Positions 33,942-63,920 of a stretch of 64,000 nucleotides of DNA are shown piece after piece. Source of the DNA: an uncultured SAR86 cluster bacterium (GTDB lineage: Bacteria; Pseudomonadota; Gammaproteobacteria; Magnimaribacterales; AG-339-G14); the NCBI GenBank assembly GCA_902616715.1, contig CACMTR010000001.1, forward strand, positions 62,001 through 126,000, written 5' to 3'. The first letter of the stretch is position 1. Every line of letters starts with the position of its first letter. The translations under genes and the position numbers were made by a program. The notes below the pieces were generated by a model. The model was given only the letters and a program-made list of their open reading frames with translations, was not told the origin of the DNA and made no database searches.

Positions 33942-34600
33942 ATAAAGATTTTAAAAAGTTGGAAAAAAATTTAGGCTATTCATTCCAAAAAAAAGAAACT
34001 TTAGTTAAAGCTTTAACGCATGTAAGTAAATCTAAAGAGAATAATGAAGTTTTTGAATTTTTAGGTGATTCAGTTTTGAACCTCATTATTTCTCAAATAC
34101 TAGTTGAAAAATTTTCAATGGAAGATGAAGGAACTTTAAGCTTAATGAGATCAAAGTTAGTAAGCAGAACAACTCTTAACAAGATCGCAAAAAAACTAGA
34201 GCTAGATAGCTTCATTATCAAGGGTGATTCTCTAGCGGGTCAAGAAACTCCTGAAAATATTTTAGGTAATTCTTTAGAAGCGATTTTTGGAGCTGTTTAT
34301 AAAGAGAGTGGATTAGAGTTTATACAAAAAATTATTGAAACTACTTTTGCGAAAGAGATTGAATTGCTGCGAGAAGGAAACTTAAAAAATAGTAAGACAC
34401 TTCTACAGGAATATTGTCAAAAAAATAAGTTTAGTTTGCCTACTTATAATCAAATCGAAAAAAAAGAAAATATATACACCTTTATTGTTACTTGTAAATT
34501 AGACGATAGTTCTAGCGAGGGATTTGGTAAAAGTTTAAAACTCGCGGAACAAGATGCTGCTGCAAGATTGTTGAAAAAAATAGGCGTCAAAGATGAATAA
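33938..34600 (+). CDS. rnc: Ribonuclease III
   Basis: The 220-residue protein has the RNase III catalytic signature VFEFLGDSVLNLI (usual ERLEFLGDSVL) with acidic residues, LGNSLEAIFGAVYKESGLEF as second acidic motif, and a C-terminal double-stranded RNA-binding domain from about 150 (KTLLQEYCQKNKFSLPTY ... GKSLKLAEQDAAARLLKKIG). It processes rRNA and structured mRNAs. It overlaps lepB by 4 bases and era by 8 bases. Confidence 0.97.
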   Translation: MNKDFKKLEKNLGYSFQKKETLVKALTHVSKSKENNEVFEFLGDSVLNLIISQILVEKFSMEDEGTLSLMRSKLVSRTTLNKIAKKLELDSFIIKGDSLAGQETPENILGNSLEAIFGAVYKESGLEFIQKIIETTFAKEIELLREGNLKNSKTLLQEYCQKNKFSLPTYNQIEKKENIYTFIVTCKLDDSSSEGFGKSLKLAEQDAAARLLKKIGVKDE

Positions 34601-35477
34601 AAAATTTGGATTTGTATCTTTGACCGGTAGGACAAATGTTGGTAAATCAACTTTATTAAATTCTATTTTCCAAAAAAAAATTGCTATTACATCTCGAAAG
34701 CCTCAAACCACAAGAAATAGAATTTTAGGGATTTTTTCTGATGAAAAAAATCAAATAGTTTTTTTAGATTCACCAGGAGTTCATTCTGGGTATCGAAGAG
34801 CATTAAATAAATATATGAATAAAGTAGCTAGAACTTGTTACGAAGAAGTGGATTTAGTTATTTTTGTAATTGATAGGGGTCGATGGTTAAGAGAAGAAGA
34901 AAATATTTTAAAAAATCTAAAAGAATTAGATAAGCCAATAATTTTAGTAATAAATAAAATTGATAGGTTAAAAAATAGAAATGGAATTTTACCGATTATG
35001 AATGATCTAAATTCGAAGCATAATTTTGAAGCTATAATTCCAATTTCTGCGCTCAGAAAAGATAATTTAGAAGATTTATTATCGAAAGTTTTAGAAAAGA
35101 TTCCTTCAGGTGAATTTCATTACCCAACAATAGAAGAAAAGGAGTTTTCTCAGTCCTTTTATATATCAGAAATTATTAGGGAAAAAGCTATAAATAGACT
35201 TGGGGATGAGCTGCCCTATAGAATAAACGTTGAGATAGAAAAAATTCAAGATAATAAATTTATAAAACATATTTTTTCTAATATCTATGTAGAGTCTTCA
35301 AGTCAAAAGGCAATCCTTTTGGGAAAGAATGGATCGATGATTAAATCTATAGGCACCTCTTCAAGAAAGGAGCTGGAAAAAGAATTTGATTTTAAAATTA
35401 ATTTACAGCTTAGAGTAAGAGTTAAAAAAAATTGGACGAATGACGTCAATCTTTTAACTAAATATGGATACAAGTAA
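34593..35477 (+). CDS. era: GTPase Era
   Basis: The 294 residues have G1 GRTNVGKSTLLNSI, switch KPQTTRNRILGIF, G3 FLDSPGVHSGYRRALNKYM, G4 VINKIDRL and a C-terminal KH domain (IYVESSSQKAILLGKNGSMI; IGTSSRKELEKEFDFKINLQ). Era binds 16S rRNA and helps 30S maturation. It follows rnc as in most gammaproteobacteria. Normally recO follows directly; here a 475-base insert with a small gene and leader separates them. Confidence 0.97.
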   Translation: MNKKFGFVSLTGRTNVGKSTLLNSIFQKKIAITSRKPQTTRNRILGIFSDEKNQIVFLDSPGVHSGYRRALNKYMNKVARTCYEEVDLVIFVIDRGRWLREEENILKNLKELDKPIILVINKIDRLKNRNGILPIMNDLNSKHNFEAIIPISALRKDNLEDLLSKVLEKIPSGEFHYPTIEEKEFSQSFYISEIIREKAINRLGDELPYRINVEIEKIQDNKFIKHIFSNIYVESSSQKAILLGKNGSMIKSIGTSSRKELEKEFDFKINLQLRVRVKKNWTNDVNLLTKYGYK

Positions 35478-35481
35478 ATAT

Positions 35482-35510
35482 TGCTTTTTTTATGGAAATG
35501 TTCTAATATT
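35482..35510 (+). promoter_or_regulatory. Candidate promoter for the YRG small-protein transcript
   Basis: TTGCTT (35482-35487) and TAATAT (35505-35510) with a 17-base spacer, starting 4 bases after the era stop codon. It would start transcription near 35517 and give a leader of about 200 bases before the small gene. The -35 hexamer and spacer length are the same as in the candidate proteorhodopsin promoter. Individual matches to consensus are moderate (3/6 and 4/6). Confidence 0.35.
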
Positions 35511-35516
35511 GCACAG

Positions 35517-35715
35517 TAATCGTTCATCTTTTGCACTAATTAAATGCAAAAGACGGAAGTAGGAAGATAGGAAAACCTCTTTCTTCCCAAGGGAGGAAAG
35601 GTTAGCAAGTACCCAAAGCGGGAACGAGACCGAATATCTAACGAAGGAACGCGTTGAGAAGGGTGTACGTCGGGAGATGTATGTACGAAATCGATACGAA
35701 AACTGGAGGCACGAT
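35517..35715 (+). ncRNA. Candidate structured, GGA-rich 5' leader RNA of the YRG small gene
   Basis: Between era and the small gene lie about 200 bases that are purine-rich and less AT-rich than other gaps. Stems visible by eye are TTTTGCA/TGCAAAA (35529-35535 with 35545-35551), a 10-pair purine/pyrimidine hairpin (35578-35587 with 35592-35601) and TGTACGT/ATGTACG (35664-35670 with 35681-35687, with G-U pairs), whose loop shows GGGAGA. Nine GGA triplets occur from 35554 on, several in likely loops, as in CsrA/RsmA-binding RNAs. I recognise no Rfam family. It may be a cis-acting leader or a separate small RNA; the start site is inferred. Confidence 0.45.
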
Positions 35716-35880
35716 ATGGCTACTTACTATAGAGGCGTTAAAGTGAACTCTGATAACTCTAACTCTGAAGCTAAAGCTTCAAAAGGTGGAATTTACAGAG
35801 GCATCAAGCATGACGCAATTCAAAACAATAAGTCAGCAAAAAATCCTGGGATTTATCGCGGGACTAAAACAGCTGCATAA
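35716..35880 (+). CDS. Small protein with three Y-R-G repeats (DUF4278-like), function unknown
   Basis: The 54-residue product starts at ATG 35716, chosen because a strong GGAGG (35705-35709) lies 6 bases upstream; an earlier in-frame ATG (35677) falls inside the structured leader. It contains three copies of an aromatic-R-G-x-K motif at residues 5-9 (YRGVK), 27-31 (YRGIK) and 47-51 (YRGTK), separated by Ser/Asn/Lys-rich linkers. There is no signal peptide, membrane helix or cysteine. YRG-type motifs define the uncharacterised DUF4278 family, to which I assign it tentatively. It has its own candidate promoter and a strong terminator, so it is likely an independent, possibly abundant, transcript between era and recO. 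Confidence 0.75.
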   Translation: MATYYRGVKVNSDNSNSEAKASKGGIYRGIKHDAIQNNKSAKNPGIYRGTKTAA

Positions 35881-35900
35881 ATTTGTTTTAATTTAAATTA

Positions 35901-35929
35901 GGGAGGCTTAACAGCCTCCCTTTTTTTTT
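35901..35929 (+). terminator. Rho-independent terminator of the YRG small gene
   Basis: GGGAGGCT (35901-35908) pairs perfectly with AGCCTCCC (35913-35920) around a TAAC loop and is followed by nine T residues (35921-35929). It is 20 bases after the stop codon and just upstream of recO, so recO must have its own promoter or depend on read-through. Confidence 0.93.
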
Positions 35930-43367: not shown

Positions 43368-43453
43368 GCCGAAGTGGCGGAATTGGTAGACGCGTTCGAT
43401 TCAAAATCGAATGCCCACAAGGCGTGAGAGTTCGAGTCTCTCCTTCGGTACCA
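43368..43453 (+). tRNA. tRNA-Leu (anticodon CAA)
   Basis: An 86-base class II tRNA: acceptor GCCGAAG pairs with CTTCGGT (one G-U pair), anticodon stem TTCGA/TCGAA with loop TTCAAAA, a variable arm, T loop GTTCGAGTC and encoded CCA. It closely resembles E. coli tRNA-Leu(CAA). A perfect 8-base inverted repeat (AAATCCAT/ATGGATTT, 43331-43353) lies upstream, between it and plsB. yajC starts only 9 bases after the CCA. Confidence 0.97.
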
Positions 43454-48098: not shown

Positions 48099-48173
48099 GT
48101 CCCCTTCGTCTAGCGGTTAGGACACCGGGTTTTCATCTCGGCAACAGGGGTTCGATCCCCCTAGGGGACGCCA
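48099..48173 (+). tRNA. tRNA-Glu (anticodon TTC)
   Basis: A 75-base tRNA: acceptor GTCCCCT pairs with AGGGGAC, anticodon stem CCGGG/CTCGG (one G-U) with loop TTTTCAT, T-arm with GTTCGATCC, discriminator G and encoded CCA (48171-48173). It stands alone between trmJ and the P-II gene. Confidence 0.97.
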
Positions 48174-48342: not shown

Positions 48343-48693
48343 ATGAAACTTATGTCAATTGTTGTGAAACCATCCAAAGTCGAAGCTGTAAAAAGCGCGA
48401 TTTCGTCAGTGGGTGTTAGCGGAGCTACTATCTTAGATGCTAGAGGATTTGGATCAACAAAGGGGCACACAGACTCTTATAGGGGAGCTCAATACCAAGT
48501 GGATACAAATCCAAAGGCAATGTTGCAGGTCGCATGTAAGGACGAGAGTGTTAATGACATTATAGAAGCGGTTCGTAGTGTAGCTAATACCAACACTATT
48601 GGTGATGGAAAAATTTTCATTACAGAACTTTTAGATGTAATACGTATCAGAACTGGTGAAACCGGTGAAGGTGCGATCAACGGAGAATATTAA
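48343..48693 (+). CDS. glnK: Nitrogen regulatory protein P-II (GlnK-like)
   Basis: From ATG 48343 the product has 116 residues, near the family's 112; an ATG at 48319 would add eight unconserved residues. It starts MKLMSIVVKPSKVEAVKSAI (E. coli GlnK begins MKLVTVIIKPFK). The T-loop GHTDSYRGAQYQVDTNPK keeps the uridylylated tyrosine, and the nucleotide-binding ends IGDGKIFITELLDVIRIRTG are intact. It senses ATP/ADP and 2-oxoglutarate and blocks AmtB when nitrogen is sufficient. TAATG overlap with amtB supports the GlnK role. The 145 bases upstream show no clear sigma-54 site. Confidence 0.93.
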   Translation: MKLMSIVVKPSKVEAVKSAISSVGVSGATILDARGFGSTKGHTDSYRGAQYQVDTNPKAMLQVACKDESVNDIIEAVRSVANTNTIGDGKIFITELLDVIRIRTGETGEGAINGEY

Positions 48694-49931
48694 TGGAAGA
48701 AATTAAATTTTCATTAGACACATTCTATGCTCTTATGTCAGGAGCATTAGTTATGTGGATGGCAGCTGGTTTCACTATGTTAGAAGCTGGCTTGGTTCAG
48801 AAGAAGGACGTCTCTGAGATTGTTACTAAGAATTTAGGATTGTACTCAATCGCATGTGTCATGTATTTGGCATGTGGATTTATTCTTATGTATCCAGGAT
48901 CAGCTTTAATCGACGGAATTCTTCCTGGAATAGGAACTTCTTGGTGGTTGTCTACTGCAGACCCTATTGAGGAAATCGGAATTCCTTACGGAATGGATTA
49001 CTCACAACAAGCTGATTTCTTTTTCCAAGTAGTTTTTGTTGCAACAGCTATGTCAATTGTTTCAGGAGCAGTTGCAGGTAGAATGAAACTACTTCCTTTT
49101 TATTTATTTGCTGTAATTCTTACTGCTTTCATTTACCCAATTCAAGGTTACTGGAACTGGGGTGGAGGTTTCTTAAGCTCAGGTGGTTATTCTGACTACG
49201 CTGGATCAGGTACAGTCCATTTATGTGGTGCTGCAGCAGCCTTGGCTGTTGTTACAGTCCTAGGTCCAAGAAAAGGCAAATATAATGCAGATGGTTCAGT
49301 TAATCCTATGCCTGGATCAAACATTCCTTTAGCAGCTTTAGGTGCATGGATACTTTGGTTAGGTTGGTTTGGTTTCAATGGTGGTTCAGAACTTGTTGTA
49401 AGTTCAGAAGCTAGCGCTATTGCTGTCAGTCAAGTGTTCTTAAATACTAATATGGCTGCTGCAGGTGGAGTTATTGCTGCATTGTTAACAAGTTTATTTG
49501 CAACTGGAAAAATGGATGTCACTATGGCTATTAATGGTGCTATTGCCGGTTTGGTTGCAATCACAGCTGGTCCAAGCGCCCCTACAGGTGGAGAAGCCGT
49601 ATTTATCGGAGCCGCTGGTGGTGTCTTGGTATACTTCTCAATTCTTTTCTTTGATAAAAGTTTGAAAGTAGATGATCCTGTTGGCGCAATATCTGCTCAC
49701 GGAACAGTTGGTATCTTAGGTGTAATGGTAGTTCCATTTACTTCTGATGCTTCATTCCTATGGCAGTTATATGGAGTTCTTGCTATTGGAGGTTTCACTT
49801 ACATAGCGAGCTTAATAGTTACATTTATTATTAATATAATTATGCCAATCAGAGCAACTGATGAAGAGCAAGACGCAGGTCTTGATTCAACAGAAGTTGG
49901 GGTATCAGCTTACCCAGAATTCTCAGATTAA
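48693..49931 (+). CDS. amtB: Ammonium transporter AmtB
   Basis: The 412-residue protein has 11 predicted membrane helices. The pore histidines are visible in GSGTVHLCGAAAALAVVTVL and ISAHGTVGILGVMVV; the Amt signature GAWILWLGWFGFNGGSELVV and an N-terminal MWMAAGFTMLEAGLVQKKDV are present. It conducts NH4+/NH3 across the inner membrane. It is cotranslated with the P-II gene. A strong terminator follows. Confidence 0.96.
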   Translation: MEEIKFSLDTFYALMSGALVMWMAAGFTMLEAGLVQKKDVSEIVTKNLGLYSIACVMYLACGFILMYPGSALIDGILPGIGTSWWLSTADPIEEIGIPYGMDYSQQADFFFQVVFVATAMSIVSGAVAGRMKLLPFYLFAVILTAFIYPIQGYWNWGGGFLSSGGYSDYAGSGTVHLCGAAAALAVVTVLGPRKGKYNADGSVNPMPGSNIPLAALGAWILWLGWFGFNGGSELVVSSEASAIAVSQVFLNTNMAAAGGVIAALLTSLFATGKMDVTMAINGAIAGLVAITAGPSAPTGGEAVFIGAAGGVLVYFSILFFDKSLKVDDPVGAISAHGTVGILGVMVVPFTSDASFLWQLYGVLAIGGFTYIASLIVTFIINIIMPIRATDEEQDAGLDSTEVGVSAYPEFSD

Positions 49932-54393: not shown

Positions 54394-54469
54394 GCGATTG
54401 TAGCTCAGTTGGTAGAGCGCGACCTTGCCAAGGTCGAGGCCACGGGTTCGAACCCCGTCAATCGCTCCA
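54394..54469 (+). tRNA. tRNA-Gly (anticodon GCC)
   Basis: A 76-base tRNA: acceptor GCGATTG with CAATCGC, D-arm AGCTCAGTTGGTAGAGC, anticodon stem CGACC/GGTCG with loop TTGCCAA, T-arm GGGTTCGAACCCC, discriminator T and encoded CCA (54467-54469). A perfect TATAAT lies 18 bases upstream (54370-54375). The next ATG is 15 bases after the CCA. Confidence 0.97.

Positions 54470-63845: not shown

Positions 63846-63920
<75 letters not shown>

Follow-up and report, generated by a model that had tools for sequence, protein, structure and literature searches.

The 64,000-nucleotide stretch of DNA analyzed here (the window) comes from a gammaproteobacterium of the SAR86 clade, its closest database loci being named SAR86 cluster bacterium or MED-G141. 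The interval between era (34593-35477) and recO (from 35953) raised the question of whether it holds a transcription unit of its own and what the leader and small protein encoded there might do. A sequence-only reading had proposed an independent transcript encoding a post-transcriptionally regulated small protein. The elements that it listed, a promoter-like site, a structured leader with nine GGA triplets, a Shine-Dalgarno sequence, a 54-residue ORF with YRG motifs and a terminator, were all found. They form a self-contained unit with a leader of about 200 nt (Table 1), and the proposal of a separate transcript for a regulated small protein, which matches the DUF4278 family, was supported.

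The promoter match in the window is weak. Of 38 relatives, most have a -10-like hexamer 6-12 nt before the aptamer described below (the best site scoring 9.2 versus 8.0 in shuffles); a different site scored higher in some rows from g1, the genus of the window, and in one row from genus g3. Where relatives have enough sequence beyond the unit, nearly all show a similar terminator, which lies further downstream in a variant of genus g2. The position between era and recO is kept within the genus of the window, and the unit is located elsewhere in other genera. A longer ORF of 67 aa, starting at 35677, was set aside as mechanical only.

Table 1. Features of the unit and of the neighboring nitrogen genes in the window
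Feature	Position	Strand	Basis or detail
Predicted promoter	35481..35509	+	TTGCTT 35481-35486, 17 nt, TAATAT 35504-35509 (sequence)
Predicted type 1 glutamine riboswitch aptamer (glnA, RF01739), expanded P3	35519..35655	+	cmscan 42.7 bits, E 5.8e-6
P1 5' strand CGUUC, partner GAACG 35647-35651	35521..35525	+	RF01739 alignment; invariant in 39 leaders
P2 hairpin	35527..35553	+	88 cells changed on both sides, shuffle maximum 43
Aptamer core ACGGAAGUAGG with loop E strand	35553..35563	+	Rfam consensus; invariant in relatives
Inserted conserved domain	35565..35639	+	model R1; compensatory changes in P3 and H1
Parts of the insert			P3 extension AGAUA/UAUCU; hairpin H1 35579-35600; H2 stem 35609-35625; invariant joining strands
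Aptamer 3' part CGAAGGAACGC, P1 3' strand 35647-35651	35642..35652	+	RF01739 alignment; G124-C133 invariant (alignment A5)
H3 hairpin in the expression-platform region, between aptamer and start codon	35666..35681	+	60 cells changed on both sides, shuffle maximum 36
Shine-Dalgarno CUGGAGG (DNA CTGGAGG)	35703..35709	+	sequence; invariant in 39 leaders
54-aa DUF4278 protein, three YRG	35716..35880	+	Pfam PF14105 E 2.3e-5, 25.1 bits
Intrinsic terminator	35900..35929	+	stem 35900-35920, T run to 35929
glnK (PII) 48343-48660 and amt 48738-49925	48343..49925	+	likely functional neighbors of the unit

Identity of the leader and spread of its class in SAR86

An Rfam search, which the sequence-only reading had suggested, matched the leader to RF01739 above the gathering cut-off of 35 bits. 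The same aptamer scored 34.7 bits in a genome search in which the long P3 was not aligned. RF01739 was the sole non-tRNA Rfam family matched in the window, which also contains four tRNA genes (43368-43450, 48099-48170, 54394-54466, and 63846-63917). In the solved type 1 aptamer, glutamine is contacted by C1:G59, G2:C58, and G22 (PMC6698751). When these positions were mapped onto the window by consensus, all of their counterparts were present, as were the loop E positions, and they were invariant in the leaders.

Compensatory changes in P2 and P3 conform to a three-way junction of P1, P2, and P3; P1 showed no variation at all, so it is uninformative as to covariation and is assigned from the Rfam alignment. 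An alternative P1 formed with GGGAACG (35620-35626) is broken in one leader (L097) and scored lower, and pairing with GGAACGC was preferred. A possible helix CGUU/AACG following P1 has one mismatched pair in 10 of the 39 leaders.

Pairs were counted in 39 distinct leaders on anchored segments. Nearly all cells could pair: 298 of 312 in P2, 189 of 195 in P3, 233 of 234 in H1, and 226 of 234 in H3. Cells changed on both sides numbered 10 in P3 and 8 in H1, with shuffle maxima of 5 and 4, and those in P2 and H3 also surpassed their shuffle maxima (Table 1); the shuffles ignore relatedness, and the counts are therefore not probabilities. Changes in P2, H1, and H3 were spread over several lineages, and those in P3 were confined to the diverged g2 copies, a single group in which two pairs were swapped together (G-C to A-U and U-A to C-G). 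The structural conservation that the earlier reading had called for was thus borne out, with the leader conserved over three SAR86 families. Conservation and compensatory changes are far stronger evidence against chance than the folding z-score of the leader (-2.35). Sequence and alignment identify the leader as the aptamer of a type 1 glutamine riboswitch (glnA, RF01739).

Matches to RF01739 were found in 34 of the 61 SAR86 genomes searched and in none of 397 genomes sampled from other Pseudomonadota. Canonical SAR86 copies are 45-58 nt long, some of them in tandem, and precede genes for a GlnII-type glutamine synthetase, glutamate synthase (GOGAT), a Gcw_chp porin-like protein in an operon with amt, a TonB receptor, a circularly permuted ATP-grasp protein, and orphan small ORFs. 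Tandem aptamers lie upstream of such orphan ORFs at three loci (L019, L020, and L023). The ORF concerned encodes 53 aa (MNALNIQKKIN...); the L019 copy had no Pfam or NCBIfam match and the L023 copy is cut by the contig end. Three genomes (G042, G045, and G050) contain canonical glutamine aptamers without PII and without the insert described below.

Glutamine riboswitches have been described as confined to cyanobacteria in a 2018 review, which assigns to "yet uncultured strains" the environmental copies that precede genes for glutamine synthetase, PII, and ammonium transporters (PMC6316151). Glutamine synthetase, glutamate synthase, and ammonium transporters were among the associations of glnA RNAs reported from cyanobacteria and marine metagenomes (Weinberg et al., PMC2864571). 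No report of these associations in SAR86 was found in the literature searched, which took in few subscription papers and not the principal 2018 paper on the switch in cyanobacteria. The wide occurrence of the class in SAR86 is new. The riboswitch class is a known one, but it was not expected in this clade, whose members abound in the surface ocean. Since SAR86 carries it before such nitrogen-assimilation genes, at least part of the orphan environmental copies may be from SAR86.

A conserved domain within P3

Leaders of the window type have about 75 extra nt in P3, a lineage-specific junction domain arranged as AGAUAGGAAAACCU-H1-GGYNAGCAAGUACC-H2-GGGAACGAGACCGAAUAUCU. With covariance model R1 the insert was found in 42 of 203 genomes of the SAR86 order, in families f1, f2, and f3, at one copy per genome. 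Among 321 gammaproteobacterial genomes sampled with the same model, the only matches were in two from the genus of the window. No Rfam family matched the insert, no viral contig in IMG/VR contained either of two exact patterns from it, neither leader nor protein was found in phages, and the protein was not found in plasmids. DUF4278 was downstream of all leaders read with the insert, and 39 of 39 distinct leaders were followed by a YRG frame. Nothing in the available literature or databases describes this conserved insert, which is new.

The unit can do without the insert. In genus g14 a DUF4278-type gene (L022 in genome G059, 1440-1760) lies behind two tandem canonical glutamine aptamers with no insert, and the stretch before its start codon is akin to that of the window (CGCGUUGAGAAG, a hairpin, ACGAGAACUGGAGG). 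The protein encoded there matched DUF4278 at an E-value of 1e-4, under the cut-off.

Hardly any variation is seen in the strands that join the helices of the insert; they contain AAGUA/GAA, which is reminiscent of loop E in the outer aptamer. The insert may be a second sensor or may be a structural clamp, and it is a naturally occurring case in which to test whether a second module can be accommodated within a helix of a single riboswitch. A more specific reading would make it a second sensor nested in the glutamine aptamer, through which the RNA would combine glutamine and a further signal of nitrogen or carbon status. The DUF4278 protein would then be a mimic of the GlnK T-loop, with Amt or PII receptors as its target. 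In a solved GlnK (PMC7919409), YRGA forms the turn at the tip of the PII T-loop, SAR86 PII carries YRG[AST] there, and the three YRG motifs of the small protein would match this tip. The likeness is slight, a match of three residues, and this combined reading is unlikely.

Alternatively, the insert may have broken the aptamer, leaving a degenerate riboswitch that now either acts constitutively, as a structured 5' UTR, or is recognized by a protein. The expanded P3 does lower the Rfam score, to 27-43 bits compared with 54-72 for canonical SAR86 copies. However, P1, the core, and the E-loop positions do not vary, and strong constraint on the structure of the insert is seen over three families, which makes degeneration improbable.

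The GGA triplets had suggested control by CsrA/RsmA, which would block translation by binding them. One of the nine lies within the Shine-Dalgarno sequence, and the search for csrA that had been proposed located a CsrA gene in the genome of the window (G000:C1:264513). Most of the triplets, however, are part of the glutamine aptamer consensus (ACGGAAGUAGG and GAAGGAACG), the inserted domain, or the Shine-Dalgarno sequence, and their enrichment is weak (nine in 35511-35715 versus 5.4 expected from mononucleotide shuffles, 4.9% of which reach nine). The whole RNA is also present in a genome that is 95% complete in a single contig and gave no match to CsrA (G041), so the leader does not require CsrA. 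An added role for CsrA in the species of the window may exist; as the explanation of the leader it is quite improbable and is not needed.

The DUF4278 protein and neighboring nitrogen genes

YRG motifs had been noted as a feature of DUF4278, and the ORF does match PF14105, a hair below the curated cut-off of 25.3 bits. One genus-mate scored 25.3 and several other relatives 31-35, with neighboring hits in frame. The match is nearly whole-length, spanning profile positions 1-55 of 57 and covering residues 1-50. An alignment of 15 relatives shows no change in any of the three YRG motifs (residues 5, 27, and 47). Purifying selection acts on the ORF, as its pN/pS is 0.24-0.62 (0.32 within the genus), which answers the earlier suggestion that its dN/dS be determined. 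That reading had also allowed that the RNA works by itself in trans with the peptide as a by-product; the leader is indeed better conserved than the ORF, but the pN/pS values, the invariant YRG motifs and Shine-Dalgarno sequence, and the YRG frame behind every distinct leader make this hardly credible.

The AlphaFold2 model of the protein (mean pLDDT 56) has no secondary structure and low confidence throughout, and is consistent with disorder. No relative was found in the PDB. In five g2 variant genomes (L093-L097) the DUF4278 stop codon overlaps a conserved 30-aa hydrophobic peptide, MYKVRHQKLGKIDAIIGLFLISTVLILFLS.

The unit is linked to glnK-amt in six genera, at 0.3-2.2 kb in g2, g3, g4, g6, and g9 and at 13 kb in g1, including the window; these genera are related and are not independent cases. 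In g3 and g4 it adjoins amt, on the same strand and convergently, respectively, and in g2, g6, and g9 the distance is about 2 kb; the arrangement is thus same-strand, convergent, or separated. The exception is family f2 (genus g8, G040), in which the unit is far from PII. PII was present in all 42 genomes with the insert, yet also in 165 of 203 overall, a co-occurrence that is weak and phylogenetically confounded. The glutamine synthetase of SAR86 is GlnII-type, and no match to GlnE was found in SAR86.

Proposed function and comparison with known systems

The data presented above make it probable that this is a monocistronic nitrogen-control unit of SAR86, in which a type 1 glutamine riboswitch with a P3 insert controls a 54-aa, apparently disordered DUF4278 protein that restrains ammonium assimilation. 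Control would most likely be exerted at translation initiation. By analogy with cyanobacteria, where the riboswitch is paired with DUF4278, glutamine turns expression on, and DUF4278 proteins are part of nitrogen and glutamine synthetase control (PMC6316151), high glutamine would be bound, stabilize P1, and switch expression on. The protein would then restrain ammonium assimilation, the GlnK-Amt step or GlnII being the most likely point of action. GlnK-Amt is favored as the target because the unit lies near glnK-amt, and this linkage makes the role of DUF4278 directly testable. The GlnII-type enzyme and the lack of a GlnE match make glutamine sensing by RNA, coupled to a small protein, plausible as feedback. 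Counting against the proposed function, cyanobacterial IF17 does not need its DUF4278 part to inhibit glutamine synthetase (PMC6316151).

Folding of the leaders revealed no mechanism for switching the ribosome-binding site. With P1 and P3 held, its predicted exposure hardly changed in most groups, rose in f2 and f3, and fell in the g2 variant. When the window leader is folded freely to minimum energy, an anti-Shine-Dalgarno CCUCU in the insert pairs with GGAGG; the probability of this pairing was 0-0.18 across leaders, and it was rejected as a general mechanism.

The earlier impression that no described system resembles this one did not hold, since glutamine riboswitches with DUF4278 genes are known from cyanobacteria (PMC6316151; PMC2864571). 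The SAR86 leader shares P1, P2, the core ACGGAAGUAGG, loop E, and GAAGGAACG with the type 1 riboswitch (RF01739), as well as the DUF4278 gene that comes next in cyanobacteria, and differs in its P3 insert and its gammaproteobacterial host. Cyanobacterial gifB/IF17 and DUF4278 genes, including PMM1846, likewise encode nitrogen-linked DUF4278 proteins behind a glutamine riboswitch. In contrast to IF17, the SAR86 protein is DUF4278 alone, its 54 aa lacking the further part that carries inhibition of glutamine synthetase, and the SAR86 synthetase is GlnII-type. The glutamine riboswitches of the marine phages Melnitz and Mosig (PMC9004378) are also type 1 aptamers outside the cyanobacteria, but the Melnitz copy was reported with ssrA, whereas those of SAR86 are chromosomal and associated with a nitrogen-related gene set. 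Finally, genus g14 resembles known tandem riboswitches (PMC9481103) in having tandem glutamine aptamers before DUF4278, whereas the extra module of the window is nested inside P3 rather than placed in series.
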